This document shows, in pieces, positions 1,898 through 18,905 of a stretch of 32,166 nt of DNA. The stretch spans positions 1 to 32,166 of the forward strand of contig SHWN01000011.1 of assembly GCA_009693795.1 (NCBI GenBank), written 5' to 3'. Below the pieces are notes generated by a model that was given only the letters and a program-made list of their open reading frames with translations, was not told where the DNA came from and made no database searches. The stretch's first letter is position 1; each line of letters opens with the position of its first letter. Both the position numbers and the translations under genes were made by a program. Source of the DNA: Acetobacteraceae bacterium (lineage in GTDB: Bacteria; Pseudomonadota; Alphaproteobacteria; Acetobacterales; Acetobacteraceae).

Positions 1898-3040
1898 CTA
1901 TCCCAGCCGAACCGCGCCTGCTGCGCTGAGATAGGCAAGTTTTCCGCCAGCAACCGTCGCCACAATGCGCCGCGCGCGCGGGTCCACGAGCAGTACATCT
2001 GCACGTTTACCTTCATCGATGCTGCCGCGATCATCCAATCCTGCCGCGGCGGCGGGGTTGGTGGAAATCAGCGCCCACACTCGCGTCAGATCGAACATGC
2101 CGCGCTCCGCCATGACAAAGGCGGCACGCAGCATAGCGGGGTAAAAGTAATCGGACGACAGGATGGAGCAGATGCCCGCCTCCGCTAACACCGCCGCCGA
2201 AGCCCAACCGAGATGGGATTTTCCCCGCACTACGTTGGGGCTGCCCATGACCACCCAATCTCCAGCAGCGCGCGCGGCGTGGCCAACCTCCTCGGCGATT
2301 GGAAATTCGCAGATGCGCGCGCCACGCTCGCGAAATCTGGCACGGACATCCACGTGGGCATCATCATGGCTGGCCATGGGTATCCCAGCCGCACGTGCCG
2401 CCGCACTTAACATATCCAACGCCGCCGGCACTGCATCGGCACGGGCAGCAATGCGCGCAGCAAGTGTGGAAAAATCCGCCAGACTCATACCAGCGCGATC
2501 GCTGTATTTCGCGCCTTGCACGGGGTCCTTTATTTTCTTCAGGATGGACGGCGTATGGTCGTTGAAAGCAAGAAGGTGCACGCGCCCGGCGGTAATATCC
2601 GCCACTGCGGCGTCCAGCGCGTCCAGGTTAAACGCTTCCCAGCGCAGATGGATCCGCATGTCGCAGACCCACCGCTCGGCCACCAGCGCCGCTTGCAAGG
2701 CGCGCCAGGACTCCAGGCTTCGCAAGCCAGGCTCCCAGGACAATGTGACGCCGTGAAACGCGGTGGTGATGCCATTGGCAAGCAATTGGGATTCGGTATC
2801 GGCCAGCGCGATTTGTGCGGCAAAGCCAACGCCAGGCCGCGGCTGCAACTGCCGCTCGAACGCGTCGCCATGGATGTCCACGATGCCGGGCAGCACCAGC
2901 AGATCGGTAGCGTCCAACGTTAGCGCGTCGCCGCCGGCGCCGATGGGGCCGATACGGCCGTCACTGACCACGATATCGGCATCAGCGAGACCTTCGTCGC
3001 CCAGCAGGACACGACCGCCTTTGATCCGCAGCTTGCGCAT
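1898..3040 (-). CDS. phnM: PhnM-type amidohydrolase, paralogue 1
   Basis: The 380-residue product belongs to the PhnM branch of the amidohydrolase superfamily. PhnM hydrolyses alpha-D-ribose 1-methylphosphonate 5-triphosphate to the 5-phosphate and pyrophosphate, the step before C-P cleavage. Visible motifs are LVLPGIVDIHGDAFERQLQP (first metal-binding loop), FHGVTLSWEPG, FNDHTPS, ASHDDAHVD, GSPNVVRGKSHLG and SSDYFYPAML (late Asp). The first loop has HGD where the other copy in this window (8421-9560) has HTD, so the two belong to different subtypes. An in-frame ATG at 3100 would overlap phnF by 17 bp; I chose the ATG at 3040 because MRKLRIKGGRVLLGD aligns with the usual N-terminus. It follows phnF on the same strand by 43 bp and is probably cotranscribed with it. 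Confidence 0.9.
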   Translation of the reverse strand: MRKLRIKGGRVLLGDEGLADADIVVSDGRIGPIGAGGDALTLDATDLLVLPGIVDIHGDAFERQLQPRPGVGFAAQIALADTESQLLANGITTAFHGVTLSWEPGLRSLESWRALQAALVAERWVCDMRIHLRWEAFNLDALDAAVADITAGRVHLLAFNDHTPSILKKIKDPVQGAKYSDRAGMSLADFSTLAARIAARADAVPAALDMLSAAARAAGIPMASHDDAHVDVRARFRERGARICEFPIAEEVGHAARAAGDWVVMGSPNVVRGKSHLGWASAAVLAEAGICSILSSDYFYPAMLRAAFVMAERGMFDLTRVWALISTNPAAAAGLDDRGSIDEGKRADVLLVDPRARRIVATVAGGKLAYLSAAGAVRLG

Positions 3041-3083
3041 GATGGGCCCCCTGGATTCGACGATGATCAGCCTTGGAAAATGA

Positions 3084-3836
3084 TCAAGGTTCGAAGACAA
3101 TCTGCACGCGCGGCGTGGGATAGCGCGAGGTGGCGAATTCTACCACCAGCCCAGCACGGTCCACATTGGTGTTTTCACAAATCAGTAATGGACGGGTGCG
3201 CGCGGTACGCAGCAGATCCGTTTCCTCCGCGCTGGGCAGGCGGGCGCTGACGCAGCTGCGCAGGCGCCGATAATCCGCGATGCCGACCTGGCGCAGCGCG
3301 GCGGTGATGGAGGCTTCCCCACGCAAGGCCGCCAGCAACCCGGGCAGCCGCGCGCAGGCGAAATAATGATCGGTCAGGCTGACAGGGAGATCATCGGCGA
3401 AACCGAGCCGCCTATAGCGGATAACACGCGCGCCGGGGCGGACGCCCAGACCGGCAGCAATGGCAGCGTCGGCAGCCTGTTCGGCCAACGCCAGAGTTTT
3501 TCCTGAAGGTTCCTTGTTGTGGCGGCGGATCCATTCGGAAAAGCGGGTGCGGGTACCGATAGTGTAGTCTAGGACATCTTCCGCCACGAAGGTGCCGCGG
3601 CCCTGCTCCACCCGCAGCAGACCCGCGCGGGAAAGCTCCTCCAGCGCGCGGCGGATAGTGTGGCGATTGACCCCGAAACGGGCCGCAAAGGCGGCTTCCG
3701 TGGGCAGGCGCTCGCCGGGGGCGTAGCGACCGGCGGCGATGTCGCGCTCCAGGCTGGTAGCGATCTGGCGCCACAACGTCACGCCATCCTGGCGGCGGAT
3801 GGGTGCTGATGATGGCGTCATATAAATTTCATCCAT
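3084..3836 (-). CDS. phnF: PhnF-like GntR/HutC-family transcriptional regulator
   Basis: The protein has 250 residues. Residues about 15-85 form the GntR winged helix-turn-helix (WRQIATSLERDIAAGRYAPG, RLPTEAAFAARFGVNRHTIR, RALEELSRAGLLRVEQGRGT). The rest is a UTRA ligand-binding domain of the HutC subfamily, with DHYFACARLP and SCVSARLPSAEE. The sequence VNRHTIRRA closely resembles the recognition helix of E. coli PhnF. It is divergent from phnGHIJKLM across a 90-bp gap containing a perfect palindrome, so it very likely represses both sides until a phosphonate-derived ligand or phosphate starvation relieves it. The start may also be the second Met at 3821. Confidence 0.92.
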   Translation of the reverse strand: MDEIYMTPSSAPIRRQDGVTLWRQIATSLERDIAAGRYAPGERLPTEAAFAARFGVNRHTIRRALEELSRAGLLRVEQGRGTFVAEDVLDYTIGTRTRFSEWIRRHNKEPSGKTLALAEQAADAAIAAGLGVRPGARVIRYRRLGFADDLPVSLTDHYFACARLPGLLAALRGEASITAALRQVGIADYRRLRSCVSARLPSAEETDLLRTARTRPLLICENTNVDRAGLVVEFATSRYPTPRVQIVFEP

Positions 3837-3864
3837 CGGCGCCTCGAATTGGTATTGCTTCAGC

Positions 3865-3918
3865 TTGACGATACTTTTTATTTTATCTAGTTGTCTAGAT
3901 GATATAACAATATCGGAG
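3865..3918 (+). promoter_or_regulatory. phnF/phnG intergenic control region with palindromic operator
   Basis: A perfect inverted repeat ATCTAG-TTGT-CTAGAT lies at 3885-3900 and includes TTGTCTAGA, similar to the TCTAGA-type cores bound by HutC-subfamily GntR proteins. A possible -35 hexamer, TTGACG, is at 3865-3870; the -10 would then fall at about 3888-3893, on top of the palindrome, consistent with repression by occlusion. GGAG at 3915-3918 is the phnG ribosome site, 8 nt before the ATG. The assignment to PhnF is inference from position. Confidence 0.6.
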
Positions 3919-3926
3919 CCCTAACT

Positions 3927-4403
3927 ATGGATGCCGCCGCCGATCCCCCGTCCCCTGGTCTAACCGAGCGCCAGCGCTGGATGGCGGTGCTGGCACGTGC
4001 CAATGCGGCGGAACTCGCGGCGCTTCTGGAAACCGTGCCGCCCTTGCCCGCCTATCGCCGCTTGCGCGGACCGGAGTCTGGGCTGGTGATGCTGCGCGGG
4101 CGCACCGGTGGTGCCGGCGCCGCCTTCAACCTCGGTGAGATGACCGTGACCCGTTGCACCGTGCGCACCGACGATGGGCTGACAGGCCATGCCTATGTCG
4201 CCGGACGCGATGCGCGCCAGGCGGAACTGGCGGCGCTGGTGGATGCTTTGCTGCAAGACGCAACACGACATAGCGCCGTGCAGCAAGCGGTGATCAACCC
4301 GCTAGCCGAGGCACAGCAGCGCCGACGCGAACGCGATGGGCGCAAGGCGGCGGCCACGCGCGTGGATTTCTTTGCCCTGGCCACGATGCGAGCAACACCA
4401 TGA
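3927..4403 (+). CDS. phnG: C-P lyase core subunit PhnG
   Basis: This 158-residue protein shows the family landmarks RQRWMAVLARA near the N-terminus, FNLGEMTVTRCTVRTDDGL in the middle, and GHAYVAGRDARQAELAALVD before a basic C-terminal helix. PhnG is a subunit of the PhnGHIJ core complex; with PhnI and PhnL it supports transfer of the methylphosphonate onto ribose-triphosphate from ATP. It is the first gene of the rightward operon, has a GGAG ribosome site, and overlaps phnH by 4 bp (ATGA). The length is usual for the family. Confidence 0.95.
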   Translation: MDAAADPPSPGLTERQRWMAVLARANAAELAALLETVPPLPAYRRLRGPESGLVMLRGRTGGAGAAFNLGEMTVTRCTVRTDDGLTGHAYVAGRDARQAELAALVDALLQDATRHSAVQQAVINPLAEAQQRRRERDGRKAAATRVDFFALATMRATP

Positions 4404-4978
4404 GCGCCACGATAGACCTGCCCGGCTTCGCCGATCCGGCACGCGATGCCCAGCGTGCCTTCCGCGCCGTGCTGGCGGCGATGGCGGAACCCGGCAGCCT
4501 GCGTATGGCGGGTGACGATCTGATCGCCCCCGCCCCACTGGCACCGGCCACCGCCGCCGTGCTGCTGACCCTAGTGGATGGAGACATGTCGCTGGCCATG
4601 GACGCGGCCACATATCCGGCCCATCCGTGGGTGATATTCCATTGCGGAACCACCCTAACTGAACCGGCAAAAGCACGCTTCATAGTAGCGCTGGACTGCC
4701 CGGATCTTTCCACCCTGCCGTCCGGCAGCGATGAAGCGCCGGAGGAATCCAGCACCCTCATCCTGCAAGTGCGCGCGTTGGGCAGCGGCACGCCGTATTG
4801 CCTGTCCGGCCCCGGATTGCGCTCCCCCATGATCTTGCGCGCGGACGGCTTGCCGGCAGATTTCGCCGCCCATTGGGCCGCGAACCATGCGCTGTTCCCG
4901 CGCGGCATCGACATCATCCTGTGCGCCGGAGCCACGCTGGTCGCCTTGCCGCGGAGCATGACGGTGGAGAACGCCTGA
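4400..4978 (+). CDS. phnH: C-P lyase core subunit PhnH
   Basis: The 192-residue product begins MSATIDLPGFADPARDAQRA and continues FRAVLAAMAEPGSLR, the typical N-terminal helix of PhnH. The fold is related to PLP-dependent transferases but has no PLP-binding lysine; in the E. coli complex PhnH is a structural subunit bound to the PhnGIJ core. It starts in an ATGA overlap with phnG and ends in a one-base overlap (TGATG) with phnI, so translation is probably coupled. Confidence 0.94.
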   Translation: MSATIDLPGFADPARDAQRAFRAVLAAMAEPGSLRMAGDDLIAPAPLAPATAAVLLTLVDGDMSLAMDAATYPAHPWVIFHCGTTLTEPAKARFIVALDCPDLSTLPSGSDEAPEESSTLILQVRALGSGTPYCLSGPGLRSPMILRADGLPADFAAHWAANHALFPRGIDIILCAGATLVALPRSMTVENA

Positions 4979-6066
4979 TGGCCTATGTGGCGGTAAAGGG
5001 CGGCGAACGCGCGATCGACAACGCGCATGCCTGGCTGGCGGAGACGCGACGCGGGAATCCGGATGTGCCGGAAATCGGCGTGGCCCAGATTGCCGAACAG
5101 ATCGGCCGCGCGGTGGACCGGGTGATGGGCGAAGGCTCGCTGTTCGACCGCGAACTTGCCGCGCTGGCGATCAAGCAATCCCAAGGCGACCTGATCGAGG
5201 CCGCGTTCCTGTTGCGCGCCTATCGTACCACCCTACCCCGCTTTATCCATTCGGAACCGGTGGATACGGCCGGCATGGCGATACGCCGGCGCATCTCCGC
5301 AACCTTCAAGGATCTGCCCGGCGGGCAGATCCTTGGGCCAACCTACGACTACACACACCGTCTGCTGGATTTTGCGCTGGCCAGCGAAGCAACGGTCGCG
5401 GCGGCGCCGGAAGCCTCTCACCCGGTGGGCGAGATGGCTCATGTGCATAGCCTCCTCCGCCATGAAGGTTTGCTGGAAAACGATGAGCCCGCCGCCGCCG
5501 GCGAACCCGGCGACCTGACGCGTCAACCGCTGAGTTTCCCCGCGCCACGCGATGTGCGTCTCCAAGCCCTGGCGCGCGGCGATGAGGGGTTCCTGCTGGC
5601 ACTCGGCTATTCCACCCAACGCGGCTGGGGCGGCACGCATCCCTTTGCCGGCGAAATCCGCATGGGCGAGGCTGTCGTTGAAATCATCCCACCGGAACTC
5701 GGCTTCCCCATTGATATCGGCGATATCACACTAACAGAATGTCAGATGATAAACCAATTCAAAGGCAGCAAGACCGTGCCGGCCCAGTTCACCCGCGGTT
5801 ATGGCCTAGTCTTCGGCCACAGCGAGCGCAAGGCGATGGCCATGGCGCTGGTTGACCGCGCGATGCGCGCCGAGGAACTGGGCGAGGACGTCACAGCGCC
5901 GGCGCAAAACATCGAATTCGTCCTGTATCATTCGGACAATGTGGAGGGCACCGGATTCACCGAACATCTGAAACTGCCGCATTATGTTGATTTCCAGAGT
6001 GAACTGGAAACTGTCCGCCGGATGCGGCGCGATATGGCGGCGCCGATGGCGGAGGTAGCGCAATGA
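4978..6066 (+). CDS. phnI: C-P lyase subunit PhnI (purine ribonucleoside triphosphate phosphonylase)
   Basis: The 362-residue protein starts MAYVAVKGGERAIDNAHAWL, the canonical PhnI start, so I rejected an in-frame start at 4798 that lies inside phnH. Further family blocks include QLGVAQI-like GVAQIAEQIGRAVDRVMGE, FDRELAALAIKQSQGDLIEA, LGYSTQRGWGGTHPFAGEIR and HLKLPHYVDFQSELETVRRM. PhnI catalyses displacement of adenine from ATP by the phosphonate, with PhnG and PhnL. It overlaps phnH by one base and phnJ by 4 bp. Confidence 0.96.
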   Translation: MAYVAVKGGERAIDNAHAWLAETRRGNPDVPEIGVAQIAEQIGRAVDRVMGEGSLFDRELAALAIKQSQGDLIEAAFLLRAYRTTLPRFIHSEPVDTAGMAIRRRISATFKDLPGGQILGPTYDYTHRLLDFALASEATVAAAPEASHPVGEMAHVHSLLRHEGLLENDEPAAAGEPGDLTRQPLSFPAPRDVRLQALARGDEGFLLALGYSTQRGWGGTHPFAGEIRMGEAVVEIIPPELGFPIDIGDITLTECQMINQFKGSKTVPAQFTRGYGLVFGHSERKAMAMALVDRAMRAEELGEDVTAPAQNIEFVLYHSDNVEGTGFTEHLKLPHYVDFQSELETVRRMRRDMAAPMAEVAQ

Positions 6067-6953
6067 AGGGCTACAATTTCGCTTATCTGGACGAACAGAC
6101 CAAACGCATGATCCGCCGGGCCATATTGAAGGCGGTGGCGATCCCCGGCCATCAGATACCGTTTGGCTCGCGCGAAATCCCGTTGCCCTATGGCTGGGGC
6201 ACGGGGGGAATCCAGGTGACCGCCGCCATCCTGGGTGCGGACGACAGACTGAAGGTGATCGACCAGGGTGCGGACGACACCACCAACGCCGTTTCCATTC
6301 GTCGCTTCTTCGCGCGCACCGCCGACGTTGCAACCACGACAAAGACAGCGGACGCGACAGTGATTCAGACGCGGCACCGCATTCCCGAAACAGCTTTGCG
6401 CGACGGACAGATCATCGTCTATCAAGTGCCGCAGCCGGAACCGATGTACCGGCTAGAGCCGAGCCGGGTGGAAACGCGGCGGATGCACGCACTGGCCGAT
6501 TACGGGTTGATGCACGTAAAGCTTTACGAGGACATCGCTCGGCTGGGTCATATCGGCATCAGTTATGATTATCCCGTTATGGTGAATGCGCGCTACCTCA
6601 TGGCGCCCAGCCCGATTCCCGCCTTCGACAATCCCAAGATGCATATGATGCCTGCCTTGCAGTTGTTCGGCGCCGGGCGGGAAAAGCGCATCTATGCGGT
6701 CCCGCCTTATACGGAGGTACGGTCGCTGGACTTCGTCGATCATCCCTTTCACCCCGCGCGCGCGCCGCATGCCTGCGGGTTGTGCGGCGCCGGTGATTCC
6801 TATCTCGATGAAGTGTTAACAGATGATCGCGGCGGACGGTTGTTCGTCTGCTCGGACACCGATTACTGCGAGACGCGGCGCGCGGACGGTCAAGTCGGAG
6901 CCGAGGGGGTGCCCGTCGGCATGCCCGGCGGTGCGGTCGAGGCGACGCAGTGA
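6063..6953 (+). CDS. phnJ: Carbon-phosphorus lyase PhnJ, radical-SAM-type Fe-S enzyme
   Basis: The product (296 residues) is strongly conserved, starting MKGYNFAYLDEQTKRMIRRA. It cleaves the C-P bond of ribose 1-methylphosphonate 5-phosphate, releasing methane from methylphosphonate and leaving the 1,2-cyclic phosphate. Gly29 in KAVAIPGHQ corresponds to the glycyl-radical Gly32 of E. coli. Cys238, Cys241, Cys263 and Cys269 fit the PhnJ spacing CX2CX21CX5C exactly; the first three bind the cluster and the last is the thiyl-radical Cys. Other hallmarks are GWGTGGIQVT, VIDQGADDTTNAVSIRRFF and MMPALQLFGAGREKRIYAVP. All key residues are present, so the enzyme should be active. Confidence 0.98.
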   Translation: MKGYNFAYLDEQTKRMIRRAILKAVAIPGHQIPFGSREIPLPYGWGTGGIQVTAAILGADDRLKVIDQGADDTTNAVSIRRFFARTADVATTTKTADATVIQTRHRIPETALRDGQIIVYQVPQPEPMYRLEPSRVETRRMHALADYGLMHVKLYEDIARLGHIGISYDYPVMVNARYLMAPSPIPAFDNPKMHMMPALQLFGAGREKRIYAVPPYTEVRSLDFVDHPFHPARAPHACGLCGAGDSYLDEVLTDDRGGRLFVCSDTDYCETRRADGQVGAEGVPVGMPGGAVEATQ

Positions 6954-7726
6954 GTGAGACCACGCTTTTATCCGCGCGGGGCGTATCGCTGTCCTTCGGC
7001 GCAATCCAGGCCTTGGTGGGGGTGGATGCCGATCTCTGGCCCGGGGAAGTGCTAGCGATCGTGGGCGAGTCCGGCTCCGGCAAGACCACCTTGCTGAATG
7101 TGCTCTCCGGCCGCGCGGCGCCGGGCACCGGCGCGGTGTGGTATCGAACTCCGGACGGGCAATTGCTGGATGTCCACACGATGCCCGCCCCCGCCTTGCG
7201 CCGGCTGCATCGTTCCGACTGGGGCTTCGTACACCAGGATCCGCGGCAGAATTTGCGCATGGGTGTCACCGCGGGCGGCAATGTGGGGGAACGGCTGATG
7301 GCGCAGGGCAGCCGTCACTACGGCCACATCCGCGATGCCGCGCGCGATTGGCTGGTGCAGACGGAAATCGACCCGAAGCGCATCGACGACCTGCCGCGCA
7401 CCTTCTCTGGCGGCATGCTGCAACGCCTCCAAATCGCGCGCACCTTGGTGACGCACCCACGCTTGGTGTTCATGGACGAACCCACGGGCGGGCTGGATGT
7501 GTCCGTGCAGGCGCGATTGCTGGATCTCATTCGGTCCCTGGTGGCGCGGTTCGGCATCGCGGTGGTGCTGGTGACGCATGATATCGCGGTGGCGCGGCTC
7601 CTGGCGCATCGCACCATGGTGATGCAGGGTGGCCGGGTGGTGGAAACCGGTTTGACCGATCAGGTGCTGGACGACCCGCAACATGCTTACACGCAGTTGC
7701 TGGTCAGCTCGGTCCTTAACGCATGA
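6950..7726 (+). CDS. phnK: C-P lyase ABC-type ATPase subunit PhnK
   Basis: This is a 258-residue ATPase of the ABC superfamily with Walker A GESGSGKTT near residue 40, a Q-loop region FVHQDPRQNLRM, signature TFSGGMLQRLQIARTL, Walker B LVFMDEPTGGLD and H-loop VTHD. PhnK docks as a dimer on the core complex through PhnJ rather than driving transport. The QNLRMGVTAGGNVGERLM segment is typical of PhnK. Translation starts at a GTG overlapping the phnJ stop (GTGA), and the stop overlaps the phnL start. Confidence 0.95.
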   Translation: MSETTLLSARGVSLSFGAIQALVGVDADLWPGEVLAIVGESGSGKTTLLNVLSGRAAPGTGAVWYRTPDGQLLDVHTMPAPALRRLHRSDWGFVHQDPRQNLRMGVTAGGNVGERLMAQGSRHYGHIRDAARDWLVQTEIDPKRIDDLPRTFSGGMLQRLQIARTLVTHPRLVFMDEPTGGLDVSVQARLLDLIRSLVARFGIAVVLVTHDIAVARLLAHRTMVMQGGRVVETGLTDQVLDDPQHAYTQLLVSSVLNA

Positions 7727-8424
7727 ATAACGCCATGTTGCGTACCGAAGGGCTTTGTAAGGCATTCATGCTGCATTTGCAGGGCGGGGTACGAATTCCC
7801 GTGCTTTCTCAAATTGATCTGGACCTGCATGCGGGAGAATGCGTCGCCCTGGTAGGGCCATCGGGGGCAGGGAAGTCCACCTTGATGCGCAGTCTTTACG
7901 GCAATTACCGCGCCGATGTCGGGCGGATTTTGATTCGTCACGGGGGATCTATGGTCGATCTGGCGACCGCCGATCCACGCGTGATCATCGCGGTACGGCG
8001 CCAGACCATGGGCTATGTCAGCCAGTTCCTGCGCGTCGTGCCGCGCGTATCGGCGCTGGACATCGTTGCCGAGGCTGCGATGGCACGCATGCATACACTG
8101 GCGACCGCACGAGGGGCGGCGGCGGCACTGCTGACGCGGCTGAATATTCCCGCGCGGCTGCACGCGCTACCACCAGCGACGTTCTCCGGTGGCGAACAGC
8201 AGCGCGTGAACCTCGCACGAGGTTTCATCGGCGGACATCCGATCCTGTTACTCGATGAACCGACAGCCGCGCTCGATCCCGCCAATCGCGCGGTGGTGGT
8301 GGCGCTGATCCGGGAAGCGAAGGCACGCGGCATTGCCATCGTCGGCATCTTCCACGATGCCGAAATACGCGATGCCGTCGCCGACCGCCTGTTTGCCGTA
8401 ACCCCATGGCAGGACGCCGCATGA
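7723..8424 (+). CDS. phnL: C-P lyase ABC-type ATPase subunit PhnL
   Basis: A second ABC-type ATPase of 233 residues. Walker A is GPSGAGKST, followed by YGNYRADVGRILIRHGG, an insertion region typical of PhnL. Q-loop context is GYVSQFLRVVPRVSALDIVA, signature FSGGEQQRVNLARGF and Walker B ILLLDEPTAALD. PhnL is required with PhnG, PhnH and PhnI for forming the ribosylated phosphonate and can bind the core together with PhnK. It starts within the phnK stop (ATGA) and its own stop overlaps the next phnM start. Confidence 0.95.
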   Translation: MNNAMLRTEGLCKAFMLHLQGGVRIPVLSQIDLDLHAGECVALVGPSGAGKSTLMRSLYGNYRADVGRILIRHGGSMVDLATADPRVIIAVRRQTMGYVSQFLRVVPRVSALDIVAEAAMARMHTLATARGAAAALLTRLNIPARLHALPPATFSGGEQQRVNLARGFIGGHPILLLDEPTAALDPANRAVVVALIREAKARGIAIVGIFHDAEIRDAVADRLFAVTPWQDAA

Positions 8425-9560
8425 GCATGGAAGTCATTCTAAGCAATGCGCGCATCGTCCTACCCGATCATGTGATGCATGGCAGCGTGGCGGTACGCGA
8501 CAGGCGCATCGCCGCGGTTGAGGATGGGCGGAGCAACCTAACCACCGCTCTCGATATGGATGGCGATTATCTGATCCCCGGCGTGGTCGACGTGCATACC
8601 GACAATTTAGAACGCCAGGTGCAGCCGCGTCAGAACGCCCGCTGGCCATCGCGCTCCGCCATGCTGGCCCACGATGCGCAATGCGCCGCCGCGGGGGTAA
8701 CGAGTGTATTGGATGCACTGTGCCTGGGCGATCTCGGGTTCAATGAAGACCGGGTGCGGACCTTCCACGAAGCGGTCGTGGATCTCAACGCATTGGCTGG
8801 TACCGGTTTGTTCAAGGCCGAGCATTTTCTGCATCTGCGGTGCGAATTGCCGGCGCTGGACGTACTGGAATTGTTCGAACCGGTGGCCGATCATCCCCGC
8901 GTTCGCATGATCAGCCTCATGGACCATTGCCCCGGCACCGGGCAATACGCCAACCTTGATTACTATCGTGGCTTGCGGCGAAAAGACGGGCATTCGGAAG
9001 ATTATATCGAACGCCTCATCGCCAAACTGCAGGGCCAGCGCGCCCGCATGCGCGTGCCGAACCGCCGGGCCATCCTGGCCCGCGCCGCCGCGCTGGATGT
9101 CACCCTGGCCAGCCATGACGATCGTACTGAGGAAGAAATCGCGGAAAACCATGCGGACGGCATCGGCATCAGCGAATTTCCCGTTACCATGCTGGCGGCG
9201 CAGGCGGCGAAACGGGCAGGGATGCAAGTGATCGCAGGGGCGCCAAATATCGTGCGGGGCGGTTCGCATTCAGGGAATATTTCTGCCAGCGACCTGGTAA
9301 AGGCCGACGCCGTGGATGCTTTCGCCTCTGATTACGTCCCGGCCAGCCTGGTGGAAGCGGCGTTTCGCTGCGTCACTGATGGGGCACTGGACCTGGCGTC
9401 TGCGATTGCGCTGATCACTGAAAGGCCGGCGCGCATGGCGCATCTGCATGATCGCGGCCACATCGCCCCGGGGATGCGTGCCGATCTGGTGCGCGTACGC
9501 CTATATGAGGGGCTGCCCGTGGTACGTCAGGTATGGCGCGCGGGCGAACGGGTGATCTGA
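8421..9560 (+). CDS. phnM: PhnM, alpha-D-ribose 1-methylphosphonate 5-triphosphate diphosphatase (paralogue 2)
   Basis: The 379-residue amidohydrolase starts MSMEVILSNARIVLPDHVMH and carries PGVVDVHTDNLERQVQPRQN (the HTDNLE form seen in E. coli PhnM), MDHCPGTGQY, SHDDRTEEE, GAPNIVRGGSHSGNISA and ASDYVPASLVEA. It releases pyrophosphate from the triphosphate intermediate before PhnJ acts. I chose the ATG at 8421 because it forms an ATGA overlap with phnL, as all other junctions do; an upstream ATG at 8406 and the ATG at 8427 are alternatives. This copy is the likely orthologue of E. coli PhnM. Confidence 0.95.
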   Translation: MSMEVILSNARIVLPDHVMHGSVAVRDRRIAAVEDGRSNLTTALDMDGDYLIPGVVDVHTDNLERQVQPRQNARWPSRSAMLAHDAQCAAAGVTSVLDALCLGDLGFNEDRVRTFHEAVVDLNALAGTGLFKAEHFLHLRCELPALDVLELFEPVADHPRVRMISLMDHCPGTGQYANLDYYRGLRRKDGHSEDYIERLIAKLQGQRARMRVPNRRAILARAAALDVTLASHDDRTEEEIAENHADGIGISEFPVTMLAAQAAKRAGMQVIAGAPNIVRGGSHSGNISASDLVKADAVDAFASDYVPASLVEAAFRCVTDGALDLASAIALITERPARMAHLHDRGHIAPGMRADLVRVRLYEGLPVVRQVWRAGERVI

Positions 9561-9596
9561 GTAAGGATCCGTCATGCCCCGATCGAAAGCTCACAC

Positions 9597-10148
9597 GTGA
9601 CAGATCCACATCTCCAGGCCCTTGTCATCCTGCTAACCGATCGGGGCAAGGGCCGCTACGGCTTGCATGATGTGCTGCAGATTCAACACGCCTTGCAGGC
9701 AGCGAGGCTGGCGGAAGGCGATGGCCGGCAGCCAGCGCTGATCACTGCAGCGCTACTGCATGATATCGGGCACATGGTCCATGATCTGGGTGAAAACCCC
9801 ACCAATCAGGGCTTCGATGACCGCCACGAAGAGGTTGGCCAGAAATATCTCTCTCGGCTATTCGGCCCGGAGGTCACCGAACCCGTGCGCCTGCATGTAG
9901 CCGCCAAGCGATATCTCTGCGCGGCGGAGGCGGATTACGTCAGTCGGCTCTCCCCCGACAGCGTGCGCAGCCTAGGCCTGCAGGGCGGCCCCATGTCGAG
10001 CGTGGAGATGGAAGTGTTCCGCGACAATCCGCACGCGCAAGCAGCAGTCTGGTTACGCCGTTATGATGAAGCCTCCAAGGTCAAGGACCTGGAAACCCCG
10101 CCGGTCGCGCATTTTCTGTCCTATCTGGCGCAATGCCTGCGCCCCTGA
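9597..10148 (+). CDS. PhnZ-like HD-domain (diiron oxygenase family) phosphonate-associated protein
   Basis: The 183-residue protein belongs to the phosphonate-operon-associated HD/HDIG family that includes PhnZ, a mixed-valent diiron oxygenase cleaving 2-amino-1-hydroxyethylphosphonate. By alignment from memory, the six metal ligands are all present: His31, His55-Asp56 (LLHDIGH), His77 (DRHEEVG), His100 and Asp157 (RRYDEASK). Tyr21 and Lys104 match the active-site Tyr24 and Lys108 of PhnZ. The position of PhnZ Glu27 is His24 here. It begins with GTG, 36 bp after phnM, with no strong ribosome site, so the start is less certain. No PhnY-type hydroxylase is nearby, so substrate is open. Confidence 0.85.
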   Translation: MTDPHLQALVILLTDRGKGRYGLHDVLQIQHALQAARLAEGDGRQPALITAALLHDIGHMVHDLGENPTNQGFDDRHEEVGQKYLSRLFGPEVTEPVRLHVAAKRYLCAAEADYVSRLSPDSVRSLGLQGGPMSSVEMEVFRDNPHAQAAVWLRRYDEASKVKDLETPPVAHFLSYLAQCLRP

Positions 10149-10301
10149 TGATAGCGCGACGATGACGGTCGATACCTGTGCCGTCACCCTTCCCCGCCGG
10201 CTACCGGCGAAGCAATCCCGTCAGCGGGCTCGACAGGTCGGCGCCCATGCGGCGGGGTATACGGCCGGCGAGCTAAGCGAAAACGCGTTTTCAAACAAAC
10301 G
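10149..10301. terminator. Intergenic region between convergent operons, possible terminator
   Basis: This gap separates the rightward phn operon from the leftward ABC-transporter genes. It holds a CGCCGG-CTA-CCGGCG hairpin near 10196-10211 and a perfect 14-bp palindrome GAAAACGCGTTTTC at 10279-10292. Neither has a classical T-tract, so termination is inferred from position. Confidence 0.4.
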
Positions 10302-11594
10302 CTAACCCAATCCTTCCAGGCTGAATTGCTGTTCTTCTTCGTCGTAGCTGAATAATTCCGCGTAGCGGCCCCAGCCAATGGCGGTGCGCAACGTGTTCTC
10401 GGCGTATTCGGGGGACATATGGTCCTCCAACTCATCGCGAAAGCGCATGGCGGCGGCGCGATGGTTCCAGCGTTCGTCCAGCACCTGGCGGATCATGCCA
10501 ACCAGTGGCACCTGGGCACGCAGCGCGTTGGCAAACATCGCCTTGCGATCATCCGTGCCCGCGGCGACGAAGGCGCGCCCGGATAAGGTAAGGTGAATAT
10601 CCCCTTCCGCCAGATCGGCAAAACCCAGCAGATGCAGCACCTCTCCCAGCGGAAACAGATCGTCGACTTCCAGTTGCAGCGGCCCCGCCAGATTGGGCAA
10701 ATCAGCGCGGCCGAGAAACGGCGGCGCCGCCACCGCCTCCATCAACCCGGCCATCTGGTTTGGGTTGATCTCCGGCAGCGGCATCGCTAGCGGATGGTGC
10801 GGCGGCGCGCTGGATGCGGCGACGGCGCGGCGCGTCATCAAGGCATAAATATCATCGACCAACTTGCGGAAGGAGGGTGCCAGCCGGTCGCGCGGATGCG
10901 GCAGGCTCACGGCGATATCATGCGCGACGCGGCCGGGGTTGGAGGCAAACAGCAGAATGCGATCGCACATCAGCACCGCTTCCTCGATGCTGTGCGTGAC
11001 CATCAGCACCGATTTCGCCGGCAAGCGGCCTTCGATCCAGAGATCAATCAGATCGGTGCGTAAGGTCTCCGCCGTCAGCACATCCAACGACGAAAACGGC
11101 TCATCCATCAGCAGCAGATCGGGATGCACGACCAGCGCGCGCGCCAAGCCCACGCGCTGGCGCATGCCGCCGGACAATTCGCGCGGATAGGCGCTCTCAA
11201 AACCACCGAGACCGATAAGATCAATCGCCGTCTCGGCCCGTTTTTCCCGCTCCGCGCGTGCTATGCCCTGGGCTTCCAGGCCGAGTTCGACGTTTTCCTG
11301 CACCGTCAGCCAGGGAAACAGGGCGAAGCTTTGGAACACCATGGCAATACCCGCAGCCGGCCCCTGGACCGGCGTACCGTGCCACAGAACCCGCCCGGCG
11401 CTTGGGGCAAGCAGGCCGGCGACAATGCGCAGCAAGGTCGATTTACCGGAGCCCGAGCGGCCGAGCAGACCCACAATCTCGCCCTCCGCCAAGGTCAGGT
11501 TGACATCGTCCAGCACGACCAAATCAGCACTGGCATCCTTGTGATAGGACTGGCGGCAGGCCTCCACCCGCAACAGGATCGGACGCGTGCTCAT
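10302..11594 (-). CDS. NitT/TauT-type ABC transporter ATPase with AAA-associated C-terminal domain
   Basis: The 430-residue protein has an ABC ATPase in residues 1-260: Walker A GRSGSGKST, Q-loop VFQSFALFPW, signature LSGGMRQRVGLARAL, Walker B LLLMDEPFSSLD and H-loop VTHS. Residues about 285-430 form an extra domain (PLQLEVDDLFPLGEVLHLLG, RNLTLSGR-like HLTLSGRAFVAA) matching the AAA-associated C-terminal domain found on nitrate/sulfonate/bicarbonate family ATPases. I use the ATG at 11594, which has GAGG overlapping the permease stop, over a TTG at 11606. It follows the permease by 8 bp. No solute-binding protein is in the window, so the substrate is unknown. Confidence 0.9.
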   Translation of the reverse strand: MSTRPILLRVEACRQSYHKDASADLVVLDDVNLTLAEGEIVGLLGRSGSGKSTLLRIVAGLLAPSAGRVLWHGTPVQGPAAGIAMVFQSFALFPWLTVQENVELGLEAQGIARAEREKRAETAIDLIGLGGFESAYPRELSGGMRQRVGLARALVVHPDLLLMDEPFSSLDVLTAETLRTDLIDLWIEGRLPAKSVLMVTHSIEEAVLMCDRILLFASNPGRVAHDIAVSLPHPRDRLAPSFRKLVDDIYALMTRRAVAASSAPPHHPLAMPLPEINPNQMAGLMEAVAAPPFLGRADLPNLAGPLQLEVDDLFPLGEVLHLLGFADLAEGDIHLTLSGRAFVAAGTDDRKAMFANALRAQVPLVGMIRQVLDERWNHRAAAMRFRDELEDHMSPEYAENTLRTAIGWGRYAELFSYDEEEQQFSLEGLG

Positions 11595-11602
11595 TCCCAG
11601 CC

Positions 11603-13333
11603 TCAATCGAAGGTCAACCGGCGGGACGCATATTCATGCATCGGGCGCCAGACCAGACGGTTCACCAACAGAACAAAGCTGCACATCATCGCCACCCCCA
11701 GCACGACGCGCGGCAAATCTCCCGCCACCGTCGCGTCCGCGATATAGGCGCCCAGGCCATGCGCCTTCAGCCGGACATCGCCCCAGGAGACGACCTCGGC
11801 CACAATGGCGGCGTTCCAGGCCCCGCCAGAGGCGGTGATCGCGCTGGTCACATAATAGGGGAAAATCCCCGGCAGCATCACCCGCCGCCACCACAGCCAG
11901 CCACCGACGCGAAAATTCTGTGCCGCCAGCAGCAAATCGCGCGGCAACACCGAGGCGCCCGCTACGATATTGAACAGGATATACCATTGCGGCCCCAGCA
12001 TCATTAGCGGACTGAGCCAGATCTCAGGATACAGGTCGTAATGCACGATCAGCAGCACGACCGGCGGAAACAGCAGATTGGCCGGGAAGGCGGCAAAGAA
12101 CAGCGCCACCGGCTGCGCCCGCCGCGCCCAGACCGGACGCAACCCAAGCCAGACACCAATTGGTACCCAGATCAGACTGGCCAGGACCATCAGCAACATC
12201 ACCCGCAGCAATGTCAGGCAGCCCAACCCCAAGGCGGTCAACACATCGCCCAAGCCCAGATCGGCGGCGATCAGCGCGGCGATATGCCAGGCGGCGAACC
12301 CCACGACGCCGGTTAGCGCCACCGCGAACACGACGTCCCCGAGCGGCGAAGCCTGGCGTCCCGCGGGGGTGAAGGCCGTTGTCCCGGCCAGGCGCATCCC
12401 ACCGAGGTTGGTCAGTAACTGGCCGAACGCTTCGCCGCCGCGGCGCAGCAGCCTGGTGCGGCGCAGCAGGCGCAACAGCCAAGGTTCGGGGATTGTGGCG
12501 GCAGGCGAATCATCGACCCGGAATTTGGTAGACCACGCGACCAGCGGGCGAAACAGCAACTGGTCATAGGCCAGGATCACCGCAAGCATCGTCACGATCG
12601 TCCACATCACCGCGCCGATATCGCGCTGTTCCAGCGCCAGGGCGACGAAGGACCCGATCCCCGGCAGCTTCCAGTTCTGATCGCCGACGGAAATCGCCTC
12701 CGCCGCGACAACAAAGAACCAGCCGCCGGACATGGAGATCATGGTGTTCCACACCAGCCCCGGAATGCCGAACGCCACTTCGACGCGCCAGAAGCGCTGC
12801 CAGGGGCTGAGCCGGAAACTGCGTGCGGCTTCCCGCAATTCCGCTGGCACGTTGCTGAACGATTGATACAGGCTGAACGCCATATTCCAGGCTTGGCTGG
12901 TGAAGATGGCGAAAATCGCCGCCAGCTCCAGCCCCAGCACGCGACCGGGGAACAAGTTCATAAAAAACACGACGGTGAAAGATAAAAATCCGAGGATCGG
13001 CACCGATTGCAGGATATCGAGTGCGGGGACCATCACCAGCGCCGCGCGCCGGCTTTTCGCCGCCGCTGCCGCGTAGAGCAACGCAAACAACAGCGACGCC
13101 AGAATGGCGGCGAACATGCGCAAGGTGGTGCGCAGAGCGTAATAAGGGAGCCAGGTGGGGTCGAGATAGATCGCCACTGCTTCCGGCGCATCCAGCGGCA
13201 CCAACGTGCTCCGCGCCGTCTGCGCCAGCACCACCAGCGCACCGAAGACACAGATCAGCACCGCCAGATCCCAGCGGTTCGGCAGCCGCGCCGTCGTGGC
13301 GAAGGCTGGATGGGTGGAGGGGAACAGGCGCAT
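11603..13333 (-). CDS. Double-domain ABC transporter permease (NitT/TauT type)
   Basis: About 576 residues with roughly a dozen hydrophobic segments and two BPD_transp_1 halves. Each half has an EAA-type cytoplasmic loop: REAARSFRLSPWQRFWRV in the first, and LAAQNFRVGGWLWWRRVMLP in the second. A fused permease of this length next to an ATPase with the AAA-associated domain is a recognised arrangement of the nitrate/sulfonate/taurine class. A TTG at 13360 could extend the start by nine residues; the ATG at 13333 is preferred. The gene heads the leftward transporter pair and is divergent from the hydrolase at 13434. Confidence 0.9.
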   Translation of the reverse strand: MRLFPSTHPAFATTARLPNRWDLAVLICVFGALVVLAQTARSTLVPLDAPEAVAIYLDPTWLPYYALRTTLRMFAAILASLLFALLYAAAAAKSRRAALVMVPALDILQSVPILGFLSFTVVFFMNLFPGRVLGLELAAIFAIFTSQAWNMAFSLYQSFSNVPAELREAARSFRLSPWQRFWRVEVAFGIPGLVWNTMISMSGGWFFVVAAEAISVGDQNWKLPGIGSFVALALEQRDIGAVMWTIVTMLAVILAYDQLLFRPLVAWSTKFRVDDSPAATIPEPWLLRLLRRTRLLRRGGEAFGQLLTNLGGMRLAGTTAFTPAGRQASPLGDVVFAVALTGVVGFAAWHIAALIAADLGLGDVLTALGLGCLTLLRVMLLMVLASLIWVPIGVWLGLRPVWARRAQPVALFFAAFPANLLFPPVVLLIVHYDLYPEIWLSPLMMLGPQWYILFNIVAGASVLPRDLLLAAQNFRVGGWLWWRRVMLPGIFPYYVTSAITASGGAWNAAIVAEVVSWGDVRLKAHGLGAYIADATVAGDLPRVVLGVAMMCSFVLLVNRLVWRPMHEYASRRLTFD

Positions 13334-13433
13334 GCCGGGGATCACCAGAGCTGGTGACAATCAGTAACCCAAGCCATGTGCCTAGAACAAGCCGACACGT
13401 GCCACCTTGCGCCCACTTCGCTATCATGGCCGC

Positions 13434-14380: not shown

Positions 14381-15511
14381 CTACGCGCCGATTCCCAAAA
14401 TTTCGGCGATATGCGGCGTCGCTTTCAGGCCAGAGCCGGTCAGGACAACGACCGTTGTCTGCGCCACCGTAATGGTTCCAGCCGCCAAAAGTTTACCGAA
14501 GGCGGCGGCAGATTGCGCGGCGGTGGGCTCCACATACAGCCCCATACCGGCGAGATCGCGGGTGGCGGCAATGATCTCGGCCTCAGATAGCATTATCGCG
14601 CCGCCTTCGGTTTCGCGTAACGCGCCAAGCACCTCGCGCAACCGCAACGGCTGGGCGATGGCGGTGCCCTCGGCGATGGTGGGACTGATATCGGGGTGCG
14701 CATTTTCATCGCCCGTGATGAAGGCAAGCGCGATCGGCGCGCAATTGCGCGGCTGGGCGGCGAAAATACGCGGCATCTGCGTGATTGCGCCCACACGGAG
14801 CAATTCGGAAAATCCGATCTCGCAACCGAGGACATTGGAGCCAGCGCCGCAGGGCACGATGACATTGTCGGGGGCGGTAAAGCCGAGATCTTCCCATAAT
14901 TCATAGGCGAGCGTTTTCGTGCCGTGCAGAAAGAACGGGTGCCAGTTATGACTGGCATAGAAAATCTTCCCGGCCCGTGCGACGGCGGCATCAGACGTGT
15001 CCTGGCGAGTGCCGGGGATCAGTTCCACTGTGGCGCCATGGGCGTGCATCTGCACCGTCTTGGCCGGGCTGGTGGAAGCCGGCGCCATGATAGTGGCCGC
15101 CATGCCCCCGGCGGCGGCATAGGCGGAGACCGCCGCGCCGCCATTCCCTGAACTGTCTTCCAGAACGGCGGTGACGCCCTGGGCACGCAGGAGGGACAGC
15201 ATCACGCTGGCACCGCGATCCTTAAAACTGGCGGTGGGCATGAACCATTCGCATTTCAGCAACGCCGTCGCGCCGTACAGGGACCGTGCGAGCAGCGGCG
15301 TGCAACCCTCGCCCATGGTGATCGGATCGTCCGGGACAAACGGAAAGGCGGCGCGATAGCGCCACAGGCTGCGTGTGGTTGTGTCGATGGCCACGCGGGT
15401 GATGCCTGGCATCGGCGTCAGCAGCAGCGGTGCCCGGTTAGGCCCACACCAGCGCGGTGTGTGGAGGGGGAAATGGTCACCCGTGCGCGGGTCCAGATAT
15501 GCGATGTCCAT
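14381..15511 (-). CDS. Threonine-synthase-like PLP-dependent enzyme
   Basis: The 376-residue protein is a fold-type II PLP enzyme. Lys97 in MPTASFKDRGAS is the Schiff-base lysine, EDSSGNGGAAVSAYA binds the cofactor phosphate, and VPCGAGSN is the glycine loop. MGEGCTPLL near residue 66 and the domain order resemble threonine synthase. True ThrC normally sits with hom or thrB; here the neighbours are unrelated, so it may be a paralogue acting on another O-phospho-amino acid. A GTG at 15535 is an alternative start; no clear ribosome site supports either. Confidence 0.85.
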   Translation of the reverse strand: MDIAYLDPRTGDHFPLHTPRWCGPNRAPLLLTPMPGITRVAIDTTTRSLWRYRAAFPFVPDDPITMGEGCTPLLARSLYGATALLKCEWFMPTASFKDRGASVMLSLLRAQGVTAVLEDSSGNGGAAVSAYAAAGGMAATIMAPASTSPAKTVQMHAHGATVELIPGTRQDTSDAAVARAGKIFYASHNWHPFFLHGTKTLAYELWEDLGFTAPDNVIVPCGAGSNVLGCEIGFSELLRVGAITQMPRIFAAQPRNCAPIALAFITGDENAHPDISPTIAEGTAIAQPLRLREVLGALRETEGGAIMLSEAEIIAATRDLAGMGLYVEPTAAQSAAAFGKLLAAGTITVAQTTVVVLTGSGLKATPHIAEILGIGA

Positions 15512-15597
15512 GATGACGTCAGTTTGAACGCACACGGGGTGTGGCTCAAGCGCCCGATCCTTGCCATAGTGACCGGTCGCTAAGCAGGGGTAGATGC

Positions 15598-16056
15598 ATG
15601 GGTTACGTCGAAAAAGCGCTGCAACCGGAGGAGACCGTCACTTACAAGACCACGGTGCATTGGTTTCTCTATATCCCTGCCGCCGCCTGGGGCGTAACGG
15701 CCTTTGCCTTCATGGTGTACTGGTGGCATGGCAATATCGGCGCAAGCGTGCTGGGCTGGCTCAGCCTCGCCAGCTCCGGCATGGCCGTGCTGAAGGGATT
15801 ATATGCCTGGGTGAAACGGCTGACGACGGAGTTGGCGGTCACCAGCCGGCGCGTGATCTACAAGACCGGGTTGTTGCGCCGACACACGCTGGAAATGAAT
15901 CTTTCCAAGGTGGAAAGCGTCGGCGTGACGCAGACCGTGCTGGGTCGCGTGTTCGGCTATGGGCGAATCGAGCTGAAAGGCACCGGGGCCAGCGACAGCA
16001 CCTTGCCGATGATCTCCGATCCATTGAAATTCCGCAGCCATATTACCGCCGGCTAA
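15598..16056 (+). CDS. PH-domain (bPH_2/YdbS-like) membrane protein
   Basis: The 152-residue protein has two adjacent hydrophobic segments (WFLYIPAAAWGVTAFAFMVY and a second around ASVLGWLSLASSGMAVL), then a soluble bacterial pleckstrin-homology-like domain: LAVTSRRVIYKTGLLRRHT, MNLSKVESVGVTQTVLGRVF, GYGRIELKGTGAS. This is the single-domain YdbS/DUF304 layout. AGGGG lies before the ATG. The role of such proteins is not settled. It ends 4 bp before the M20 gene, so the two are probably cotranscribed. Confidence 0.88.
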   Translation: MGYVEKALQPEETVTYKTTVHWFLYIPAAAWGVTAFAFMVYWWHGNIGASVLGWLSLASSGMAVLKGLYAWVKRLTTELAVTSRRVIYKTGLLRRHTLEMNLSKVESVGVTQTVLGRVFGYGRIELKGTGASDSTLPMISDPLKFRSHITAG

Positions 16057-16060
16057 AGCG

Positions 16061-17215
16061 ATGGCGCACCCCCCCAGAGGTCTTCCCAATGATGTGCTGG
16101 CTGCCGTCACCGCGCTGACGCGCGAGCTGGTGATGATCGATAGCCGGAGTTTTGTCTCCAACATTCCCGTGGCCTGTCGGGTGGAAGTCGCGCTGAACGG
16201 GTTTGAGATCGAGCGGTTGGATTATGTCGATGCGGCCGGCGTGGCCAAGCGGGTGCTGGTGGCGTTCAAGGGCCCGGCCGGGGCCACCGGCGGGCTGGCC
16301 TTGTCCGGCCATATGGACACGGTGCCCGATACCGGCTGGATGGAAAATCCCTGGGCGGCATCGGTGGATGCGGATGGTTGGATGCACGGCCTCGGCACCA
16401 CCGACATGAAAGGTCCGGTGGCGGCATTGATCACGGCAGCACGGGCCTTGCCCGATAGCGTGCCAGTGACGTTGCTGATCACCACCGATGAGGAAACTAC
16501 GAAGGAGGGCGCGCGATTGATCGCCACGCACTCGGCGCTGGTGCGGCGCATCCAACCGCGTGCGATCATCATCGCGGAGCCCACCAGCCTGGCGCCCGTG
16601 CGGGGCCATCGCAGCCATATCGGCTTTACCTGCGTGGCGACCGGGGTGCAGGCGCATTCCTCCACGGGCAAGGGGCGCAATGCGAACTGGGATCTTCTGC
16701 CGTTTTTGATGGACATGAAAACCGTGTTCGAGCGGCTACGCACGGATACAACGTTACAAGATAAAAATTACAATCCACCATTCAGCGATTTTAACCTGAT
16801 CATCGATAATCACGGCGTGGCGACGAATGTCACAGTGCCGAAAGCGACGGCACGGATAAAGTTTCGCTATTCGGCGCGGGTGGACCCGACGCCCGTGCTG
16901 GCAGCGGTGCATGGCGCGGCAGAAAAATTCGGCATTGACGTGACCGAGGCACGGGAAGGCTTTCCGCCCGAATTGCCGGAAGATCATCCGTTTGTACGCC
17001 TGTGCGAACGCCTGACCGGGGCCATGGCCGGCACCGCGCCTTATGGCACCGATGCCTCGGAATTGCAGGCCATCGCACCCTGCGTCGTGCTGGGACCAGG
17101 CGATATCGGCCAGGCACACACGCCGACGGAGAAGGTGCGGCTGACGGAGCTGGCGGATGCGGTGCCCTTGTTCATGCGCCTGGCGGAACACGTCGCGCGT
17201 GGCGGCGAAATCTAA
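16061..17215 (+). CDS. M20-family amidohydrolase/peptidase (ArgE/DapE-like)
   Basis: This 384-residue metallohydrolase has the co-catalytic zinc set of the M20 family: His84 with Asp86 in LSGHMDTVP, Asp115 in GLGTTDMKG, Glu144-Glu145 in TTDEETTKEG, Glu173 in IIAEPTS and the late His353 in GQAHTPTEK. A lid/dimerization domain occupies about residues 185-295 (GVQAHSS). The closest family pattern is acetylornithine deacetylase or succinyl-diaminopimelate desuccinylase, but the gene is not next to arg or dap genes. The start lies 4 bp after the PH-domain gene. Confidence 0.88.
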   Translation: MAHPPRGLPNDVLAAVTALTRELVMIDSRSFVSNIPVACRVEVALNGFEIERLDYVDAAGVAKRVLVAFKGPAGATGGLALSGHMDTVPDTGWMENPWAASVDADGWMHGLGTTDMKGPVAALITAARALPDSVPVTLLITTDEETTKEGARLIATHSALVRRIQPRAIIIAEPTSLAPVRGHRSHIGFTCVATGVQAHSSTGKGRNANWDLLPFLMDMKTVFERLRTDTTLQDKNYNPPFSDFNLIIDNHGVATNVTVPKATARIKFRYSARVDPTPVLAAVHGAAEKFGIDVTEAREGFPPELPEDHPFVRLCERLTGAMAGTAPYGTDASELQAIAPCVVLGPGDIGQAHTPTEKVRLTELADAVPLFMRLAEHVARGGEI

Positions 17216-17235
17216 CGAAGCTTAAGAAGCGAGCG

Positions 17236-18054
17236 ATGGCGAATTTTCAAACACGTGATCTGGTCTATTACTGCCCCGATGGGCGGCCTTTGCTGGCGCG
17301 GCTATATCAACCTGCTGGCAGTGGTCCGCTGCCCGCCCTGGTGGAAGCGCATGGCGGCGCCTGGGTAGGCGGTGACCGACTGAACAATGTCTCGATCGCC
17401 GAAAATCTGGCGGCGGCGGGGATTGTCGTGTTCTCTCTTGATTTTCGTATTCCACCGGAGAAAGGTTATCCGGATACGGTGGCTGATATTAACTTTGGCA
17501 TTCGCTGGTTCAAAGCCCATGCGGCGGAGTTTTCCACGCGCGCGGATCTGGTGGGTGGGCTCGGCACGTCATCGGGTGGGCATCTGTTGCAATTGAACGT
17601 GCTGTGCCCACGTGATGCGCGCTATGCGGCCGCACCTTTGCCGGGCGCGCCAGATGCCAGCCTGGCCTATGCGATGTTCTGCTGGCCGGTGGCCGATCCG
17701 CTGACGCGCTATCGCGTACAACAGGAACGCCGCAATGACCGGCTGGTGGCCGCGCATCACGCCTTCTGGCCGAATGTCGAGGCGATGGAGGAAGGCAGCC
17801 CACAACATATCCTGGATCGCGGCGAGAAAGTTTCGTTGCCGCCGGCGCTGATCATGCAGGGCGACAATGACGATAACCTGACACCGAACATGGCCTCACG
17901 CTTCGCCGCGTCCTACCGGCGCGCGGGCGGGGACATCACATTGGAAATGTTTCTTGGCGAGCAACATGCCTTCGTGCCGCGCGATCCAACATCGGACAAT
18001 TCCGTGCGCGCATTACGGCTGATGCGCGATTTCGTGCTACGCCAGACGCGGTGA
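17236..18054 (+). CDS. Alpha/beta hydrolase (alpha/beta_hydrolase_3-like esterase)
   Basis: A 272-residue hydrolase with the oxyanion signature EAHGGAW (residues 37-43) and a nucleophile elbow GTSSGGH with Ser112. The acid is probably in MQGDNDDNLTP and the base in LGEQHAFVPR. The overall order is that of the HSL/acetyl-esterase group. The ATG at 17236 lies 20 bp after the M20 gene; an in-frame opening from 17002 is inside that gene and was rejected. The last four bases overlap the decayed membrane gene (ATGA), implying an earlier operon. Confidence 0.85.
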   Translation: MANFQTRDLVYYCPDGRPLLARLYQPAGSGPLPALVEAHGGAWVGGDRLNNVSIAENLAAAGIVVFSLDFRIPPEKGYPDTVADINFGIRWFKAHAAEFSTRADLVGGLGTSSGGHLLQLNVLCPRDARYAAAPLPGAPDASLAYAMFCWPVADPLTRYRVQQERRNDRLVAAHHAFWPNVEAMEEGSPQHILDRGEKVSLPPALIMQGDNDDNLTPNMASRFAASYRRAGGDITLEMFLGEQHAFVPRDPTSDNSVRALRLMRDFVLRQTR

Positions 18055-18730: not shown

Positions 18731-18783
18731 ATCCCGCACGGCGTTCATACCAGAGCTTAGTGAGTGTTGCGTTCGATGCATTG

Positions 18784-18876
18784 TGGCGGAAGCGGATGGG
18801 AATCGAACCCACCACCCGCTTGTGGCGGGCCACTGGTTTTGAAGACCAGGGGGGCCACCAGACCCCGATCGCTTCC
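18784..18876 (-). tRNA. selC: tRNA-Sec (anticodon TCA)
   Basis: The minus strand from 18876 folds as a selenocysteine tRNA of 93 nt with encoded CCA. The acceptor begins GGAAGCGA and pairs with CCGCTTCC; seven pairs are canonical and the eighth is A-C. The D arm has a 6-bp stem with tetraloop TGGT (GGGGTC/GGCCCC), diagnostic of tRNA-Sec. The anticodon loop is CTTCAAA with anticodon TCA (plus-strand 18840-18842). A long variable arm has CCCGC/GCGGG paired around CACAA. The T loop is TTCGATT. It lies 30 bp downstream of selA and is probably on the same transcript. Confidence 0.96.
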
Positions 18877-18905
18877 ATCGTGCCATTGTCCGCGCTGGCG
18901 GGCGG

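Follow-up and report, generated by a model that had tools for sequence, protein, structure and literature searches.

A PhnZ/TmpB-like HD-domain oxygenase gene at the end of a C-P lyase operon in an Acetobacteraceae bacterium and its probable role with hydroxylated phosphonates

The C-P lyase operon of an Acetobacteraceae bacterium ends in a gene for an HD-domain protein that lacks the glutamate contacting the substrate amine in its characterised relatives. Its sequence and those of its homologues suggest, with a probability of roughly 60%, that the protein is an accessory diiron oxygenase which cleaves 1-hydroxyphosphonates that are already hydroxylated, having been imported or otherwise made. 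It would work with no dedicated hydroxylase and probably make no amine contact of the kind seen in PhnZ and TmpB. Sequence comparison confirmed that the gene is a real one and belongs to the PhnZ/TmpB-type oxygenase family.

The window analysed is the whole of a 32,166-base contig, from a 2.36 Mb assembly that is 86% complete and was placed in Acetobacteraceae by its nearest relatives. In it phnF is divergent from a complete phnGHIJKLM operon, with the HD gene at the operon end (Table 1). The open reading frame listed for phnI begins at an upstream TTG at 4798, the likely start being 4978. No terminator-like site was found on the + strand between phnM and the HD gene, and no phnCDE genes were found in the annotated part of the window. 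After the HD gene, on the opposite strand (10302-13360, -), lie genes for an ABC ATPase with a C-terminal AAA-associated domain and for a double permease; these are absent at the DNA level from G077, a genome of the same genus, and are 70% similar in another genome, G096.

Table 1 Features of the window discussed in the text
Feature	Position	Strand	Basis
PhnM-like amidohydrolase paralogue, adjoins phnF	1898..3100	-	PF01979; relative beside C-P lyase in L053
phnF regulator, divergent from operon	3084..3836	-	TIGR02325 over cut-off
phnG	3927..4403	+	TIGR03293 over cut-off
phnH	4400..4978	+	TIGR03292 over cut-off
phnI	4978..6066	+	tblastn vs other C-P lyase loci, 66-71% identity; G-H-I-J order
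phnJ, C-P lyase catalytic subunit	6063..6953	+	PF06007, E 1.8e-142; CX2CX21CX5C cysteines in translation
phnK	6950..7726	+	TIGR02323, 337 bits vs cut-off 303
phnL	7723..8424	+	TIGR02324, 318 bits vs cut-off 256
phnM	8406..9560	+	TIGR02318 and PRK15446.1-5 over cut-off
Segment common to window and G077 HD/thiG site	9578..10280	+	703 bases, 81% identity; flanks differ on both sides
PhnZ/TmpB-like HD-domain diiron oxygenase (Phn-HD type, YxxH variant)	9597..10148	+	TIGR03276; TmpB and PhnZ structures; metal ligands in 112 homologues
thiG remnant, last 26 codons	10204..10281	-	81% identity to residues 244-269 of ThiG beside sister HD gene

The HD gene runs from a GTG start at 9597 to a stop at 10148 and encodes 183 amino acids. 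A preliminary description of this DNA had recognised a PhnZ-like HD protein with all six metal ligands and the active-site Tyr and Lys, encoded 36 bp after the end of phnM (9560) with no PhnY in the window, and both alignment and profiles agree with it. The protein matched TIGR03276 over almost the whole profile (NCBIfam; E 8.8e-62, positions 4-178 of 179), its 207.8 bits being borderline at 7 bits below the curated cut-off of 214.6; the same-genus orthologue in G077 scored 214.8 bits and counts as over the cut-off. Scores with the NCBIfam profile for TmpB (167.7 bits) and with NF052439 for GmPhnZ1 (150.9 bits) were far below the cut-off of 300 in each case. Sequence matches in the PDB were limited to TmpB (6npa, E 6.5e-36) and PhnZ (4mlm, E 4.3e-24).

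Pairwise alignment placed the six diiron ligands of PhnZ (H34, H58, D59, H80, H104 and D161) at H31, H55, D56, H77, H100 and D157 of the window protein, the iron-binding Tyr (PhnZ Y24) at Y21 and PhnZ K108 at K104. H31, H55, D56, H77, H100 and K104 are invariant in 112/112 homologues, while D157 is retained in 110 and Y21 in 111 of them. In PhnZ and TmpB the Glu of a YxxE loop moves to hydrogen-bond the amino group of the substrate, while the Tyr leaves the iron (review PMC8177086). This loop is absent from the window protein, which reads Y21-G-L-H24, H24 aligning with PhnZ E27. The alignment therefore upholds the earlier assignment of His24 to the position of PhnZ Glu27, but not as a fixed feature, for position 24 is variable among the 112 homologues (S 43, E 31, H 20, A 10, T 7, N 1). 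For the same reason the 'fifth conserved histidine' that PMC11203657 describes for TIGR03276 was judged not to be His24; H62, found in 95/112 homologues and absent in PhnZ and TmpB, or H59 is a better candidate.

The superposition on PhnZ and TmpB that had been suggested at the outset was made with an AlphaFold model (pLDDT 90, pTM 0.88, from a 58-row alignment), and it bore out the relationship. The model gave Z 26.1 with PhnZ and 25.9 with TmpB (TM 0.85-0.88), followed by MIOX at 11.3 and then by all others, hydrolases included, at 9.5 or below. As fold (Z and TM) and metal site both match, the protein is, on this model, a PhnZ-type oxygenase, its cofactor state being presumed. HD proteins are mostly phosphohydrolases (PMC8177086) and phnP is not among the annotated genes of the window, yet it is very improbable that the protein is a hydrolase or phosphodiesterase standing in for PhnP on a C-P lyase by-product such as a cyclic ribose phosphate. 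As structural matches PhnZ and TmpB, both oxygenases, come far ahead of any hydrolase, the Tyr and Lys typical of these oxygenases are conserved, and the HD gene occurs in genomes without phnJ and in phnW and phnX clusters with no C-P lyase detected nearby. Nothing was found in support of the idea, raised in the preliminary description, that C-P lyase intermediates or cyclic ribose phosphates are processed.

In a tree of 85 homologues the protein grouped with a same-genus orthologue (L002; support 99*) in a 57-row branch from which Glu at position 24 is entirely missing. When the tree was rebuilt without column 24, Glu and non-Glu sequences were separated by one change (support 93); within the non-Glu branch the position drifts among S, H, A, T and N, with 16 changes. 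Placement inside a characterised clade had been considered beforehand as a possible outcome; the TmpB rows instead form a separate group that excludes the window protein, which also stands apart from PhnZ, itself a single very long branch whose position in the tree is unsure. All 14 TmpA-paired rows carry Glu, and no TmpA-like or PhyH-like hydroxylase adjoining any non-Glu gene was detected with the queries used. Because TmpA and Glu both belong to one part of the tree, their pairing is a correlation along the tree and not a series of many independent events. In the literature searched, outside which the TmpB and PhnZ structure papers lay, no description was found of a single branch without the YxxE glutamate or of its lack of hydroxylase partners.

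Neither PhnY nor TmpA is encoded in the window. In the genome, at its 86% completeness, a TmpA profile gave no match at E up to 1, and no TmpA adjoins the HD gene. There are 18 TauD-domain matches in the 2.36 Mb, several of them interrupted by stops, and the five intact TauD proteins tested gave no match with the TmpA model; the two intact PhyH proteins resemble ectoine hydroxylase and a chlorinating enzyme. Resting on the TmpA profile and the PhyH and TauD matches, the search partly excludes PhnY* from this genome; any of the 18 TauD-domain proteins could make the hydroxylated substrate, and this counts against an oxygenase without a dedicated hydroxylase. A TmpA elsewhere that co-varies with the HD gene, which would have argued for a partner, was not found: TmpA-like proteins occur in 8/150 Acetobacteraceae genomes, only 4 of which are among the 44 with the HD gene. 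PhnW (TIGR03301), considered as a partner, matched in 92/150 genomes and in 10/14 controls, at an E-value too loose to discriminate. A divergent PhnW-like aminotransferase gene paired with a gene of 556 aa, in one locus a formate-THF ligase, is conserved between the two species of the genus (L157 8547-11336 in G000:C26, where the ligase was recognised, and L158 6670-9471 in G077). On the sequences, the earlier suggestion of a PhnZ-like oxygenase with a changed specificity residue and no PhnY or TmpA still appears best read as an enzyme handling hydroxylated phosphonates.

The company kept by related genes bears on the substrate. In seven Burkholderiales-type loci phnW lies just upstream of the HD gene, with phnA in 7/7 and a phnCDE-type transporter in most. 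Non-Glu genes are found in this phnCDE-phnA-phnW company and also, on an Asticcacaulis plasmid (YGLH), with phnX and a TIGR03364 FAD oxidoreductase; Comamonas shows the HD gene in the latter arrangement too. Glu-type genes on annotated plasmids adjoin gamma-butyrobetaine-type and PhyH-type dioxygenases. PhnZ homologues without PhnY* have been reported in phnWX and phnWAY clusters (15 and 24 cases) with R-HAEP as the proposed substrate (PMC8154272). The window protein might likewise be an R-HAEP oxygenase like PhnZ, acting on environmental (R)-1-hydroxy-2-aminoethylphosphonate with His24 or solvent in place of Glu27 and the substrate unchanged. The occurrence of non-Glu genes in 2-AEP operons (phnCDE-phnA-HpnZ-phnW) and phnX-FAD oxidoreductase clusters favours this, as do the published proposals of HAEP for homologues without PhnY* (PMC8154272, PMC11203657), but it is rendered rather doubtful by the loss of Glu on the whole branch and the drift that followed, which is unlike a conserved amine contact. 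The proposal in PMC8154272 that PhnZ homologues of phnW clusters deal with R-HAEP separately was counted in favour of the preferred reading, an accessory oxygenase for substrates that arrive hydroxylated.

The tie of the HD gene to C-P lyase is loose, because G077 (same genus, 100% complete) has the HD gene without phnJ and most Acetobacteraceae copies are not close to known phosphonate genes, their neighbours having no obvious part in phosphonate metabolism (for example genes for pimeloyl-CoA dehydrogenases, an M17 peptidase, or tonB and thiG). Leaving aside the window's own record, just 4 of 80 loci retrieved by similarity (L053, L065, L068 and L073) showed C-P lyase within 10 kb, L073 having the same order as the window, phnGHIJKLM-HD. 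The HD gene of G096 is also linked to C-P lyase, and among the Acetobacteraceae genomes G096 and the window genome are the only two with the HD gene and phnJ within 5 kb. On a Nostoc plasmid the HD gene is inside the C-P lyase operon, in the order phnG-H-...-phnI-...-phnM-like-HD-phnJ-K-L-M. The genes inserted between phnH and phnJ on this Nostoc plasmid, pNsp_b (L161), comprise a GNAT acetyltransferase, a FosA-like gene, a PhnM-like gene and the HD oxygenase, and this operon holds several accessory phosphonate genes together. With most loci unlinked (4/80 linked) and the G077 orthologue beside thiG in a genome without phnJ, a rule that the HD gene always travels with C-P lyase, or with phnGHIJKLM (a point the preliminary description had put forward for survey), was rejected. 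Across Acetobacteraceae, phnJ was present in 39/44 genomes with the HD gene and in 35/106 without it (Fisher p 2e-10), or by genus in 31/32 and 22/70. This association is partly a genome-size effect, since among genomes of at least 3.8 Mb p was only ~0.02, the double-negative cell being only a lower bound.

The G077 orthologue is 82% identical to the window protein and faces thiG. Upstream of 9578 and downstream of 10280 the window has nothing in common with that site. The shared segment shows the same level of identity as the syntenic core does (78-80% over 14,403-20,000), and for this reason the HD gene looks native to the genus and moved behind phnM, rather than brought with the operon. The remnant at 10204-10281 is the assembly's sole match to ThiG and, by its sequence, a trace of the ancestral HD/thiG neighbourhood, apparently carried along in a within-genus move; thiazole synthesis may have been lost from the species, or thiG may sit in the missing 14% of the genome. 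No repeat was noticed at the joints, which were read from the assembly alone, so that misassembly is possible. In the literature searched no earlier description of a relocation with a thiG scar was found. Separately, G000:C114:1-565, at a contig start, is 100% identical to G077 over 565 bases where shared genes are otherwise ~80% identical, a possible case of cross-contamination or of a very conserved element.

These observations raise the question of whether the position behind phnM is an accident, a rearrangement having joined a 0.7-kb piece (HD gene and thiG tail) to an operon with which it shares no function. In favour of an accident, neither flank matches the sister genome, the assembly holds a clear relic of thiG in that tail but no intact copy was found in it, and the orthologue is retained in a genome without C-P lyase. 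An accident is nevertheless unlikely, given that there are separate linkages to C-P lyase in several lineages, that the two genes lie within 5 kb of each other in 2 of the 39 genomes that carry both, against ~0.1 expected by chance as estimated from genome sizes, and that the piece sits in operon orientation directly behind phnM.

The protein is not a new kind, because TIGR03276, 'phosphonate degradation HD-domain oxygenase', is an existing NCBIfam family, and the literature already records PhnZ homologues that lack PhnY* as well as genes for particular substrates within C-P lyase operons (PMC9381506). The family name itself is based on phosphonate operons, PhnHD without PhnY* has been modelled in Achromobacter (PMC11203657), and phnZ and C-P lyase occur together in 21% of marine genomes (PMC9381506); these precedents and those of PMC8154272 leave the earlier idea of a peculiar or fixed association with C-P lyase without support. 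The window protein resembles the Phn-HD type of TIGR03276, such as PhnHD of Achromobacter, in its full-length profile match, metal ligands, phosphonate-gene company (phnFGHIJKLM, 3084-9560) and lack of a hydroxylase partner, but a Comamonas PhnHD relative keeps YGGE where the window branch has YGLH. With TmpB, the (R)-1-hydroxy-2-trimethylaminoethylphosphonate oxygenase (6npa), it shares fold, six ligands, Tyr and Lys (39% identity over the structural alignment), but has no TmpA partner, carries His for the Glu of YxxE and falls in a separate clade. PhnZ, the 2-amino-1-hydroxyethylphosphonate oxygenase (4mln), has the same fold and diiron site but is more distant in sequence (~33%), and the window protein has no PhnY* partner seen and His24 for Glu27. 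GmPhnZ1, the hydroxymethylphosphonate dioxygenase (NF052439), is of the same family by profile, and its amine-free substrate may be similar. The phnO gene of the E. coli C-P lyase operon is likewise an accessory gene, widening or protecting the substrate range (PMC3463581), although it encodes an unrelated N-acetyltransferase.

The preferred reading implies the following course. Downstream of phnM and separated from it by no terminator, the HD gene probably shares a transcript with the C-P lyase operon that PhnF controls. Its substrate would arrive already hydroxylated, imported or from another route, with no dedicated PhnY or TmpA. A diiron site, presumably mixed-valent, would then split the C-P bond of the 1-hydroxyphosphonate with O2, giving phosphate and a carboxylate. 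Because the YGL[S/H/A/T/N] branch lost the amine-contacting glutamate, the substrate probably has no ammonium group or is held differently, a reasonable guess being hydroxymethylphosphonate or some other 1-hydroxyalkylphosphonate that lacks an amine. The physiological role would be to widen the range of the C-P lyase operon, as phnO does in E. coli.

The gene thus comes from an ordinary family, its location makes sense, and it carries a change relevant to specificity. A broader and more tentative proposal is that the YGL[S/H/A/T/N] branch may form a distinct, widespread class of diiron C-P oxygenases for amine-free 1-hydroxyphosphonates, working without a dedicated hydroxylase and repeatedly taken up by C-P lyase, phnW and phnX operons, where they would give oxidised phosphonates a second way in. 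Surveys of ocean and soil count phnZ to gauge 2-aminoethylphosphonate oxidation. Such counts mix enzymes of different substrates if a large phnZ-like branch lacks both the amine-binding glutamate and a hydroxylase partner, and the presence or absence of Glu at PhnZ position 27 would provide a one-residue criterion by which phnZ-like genes could be sorted.
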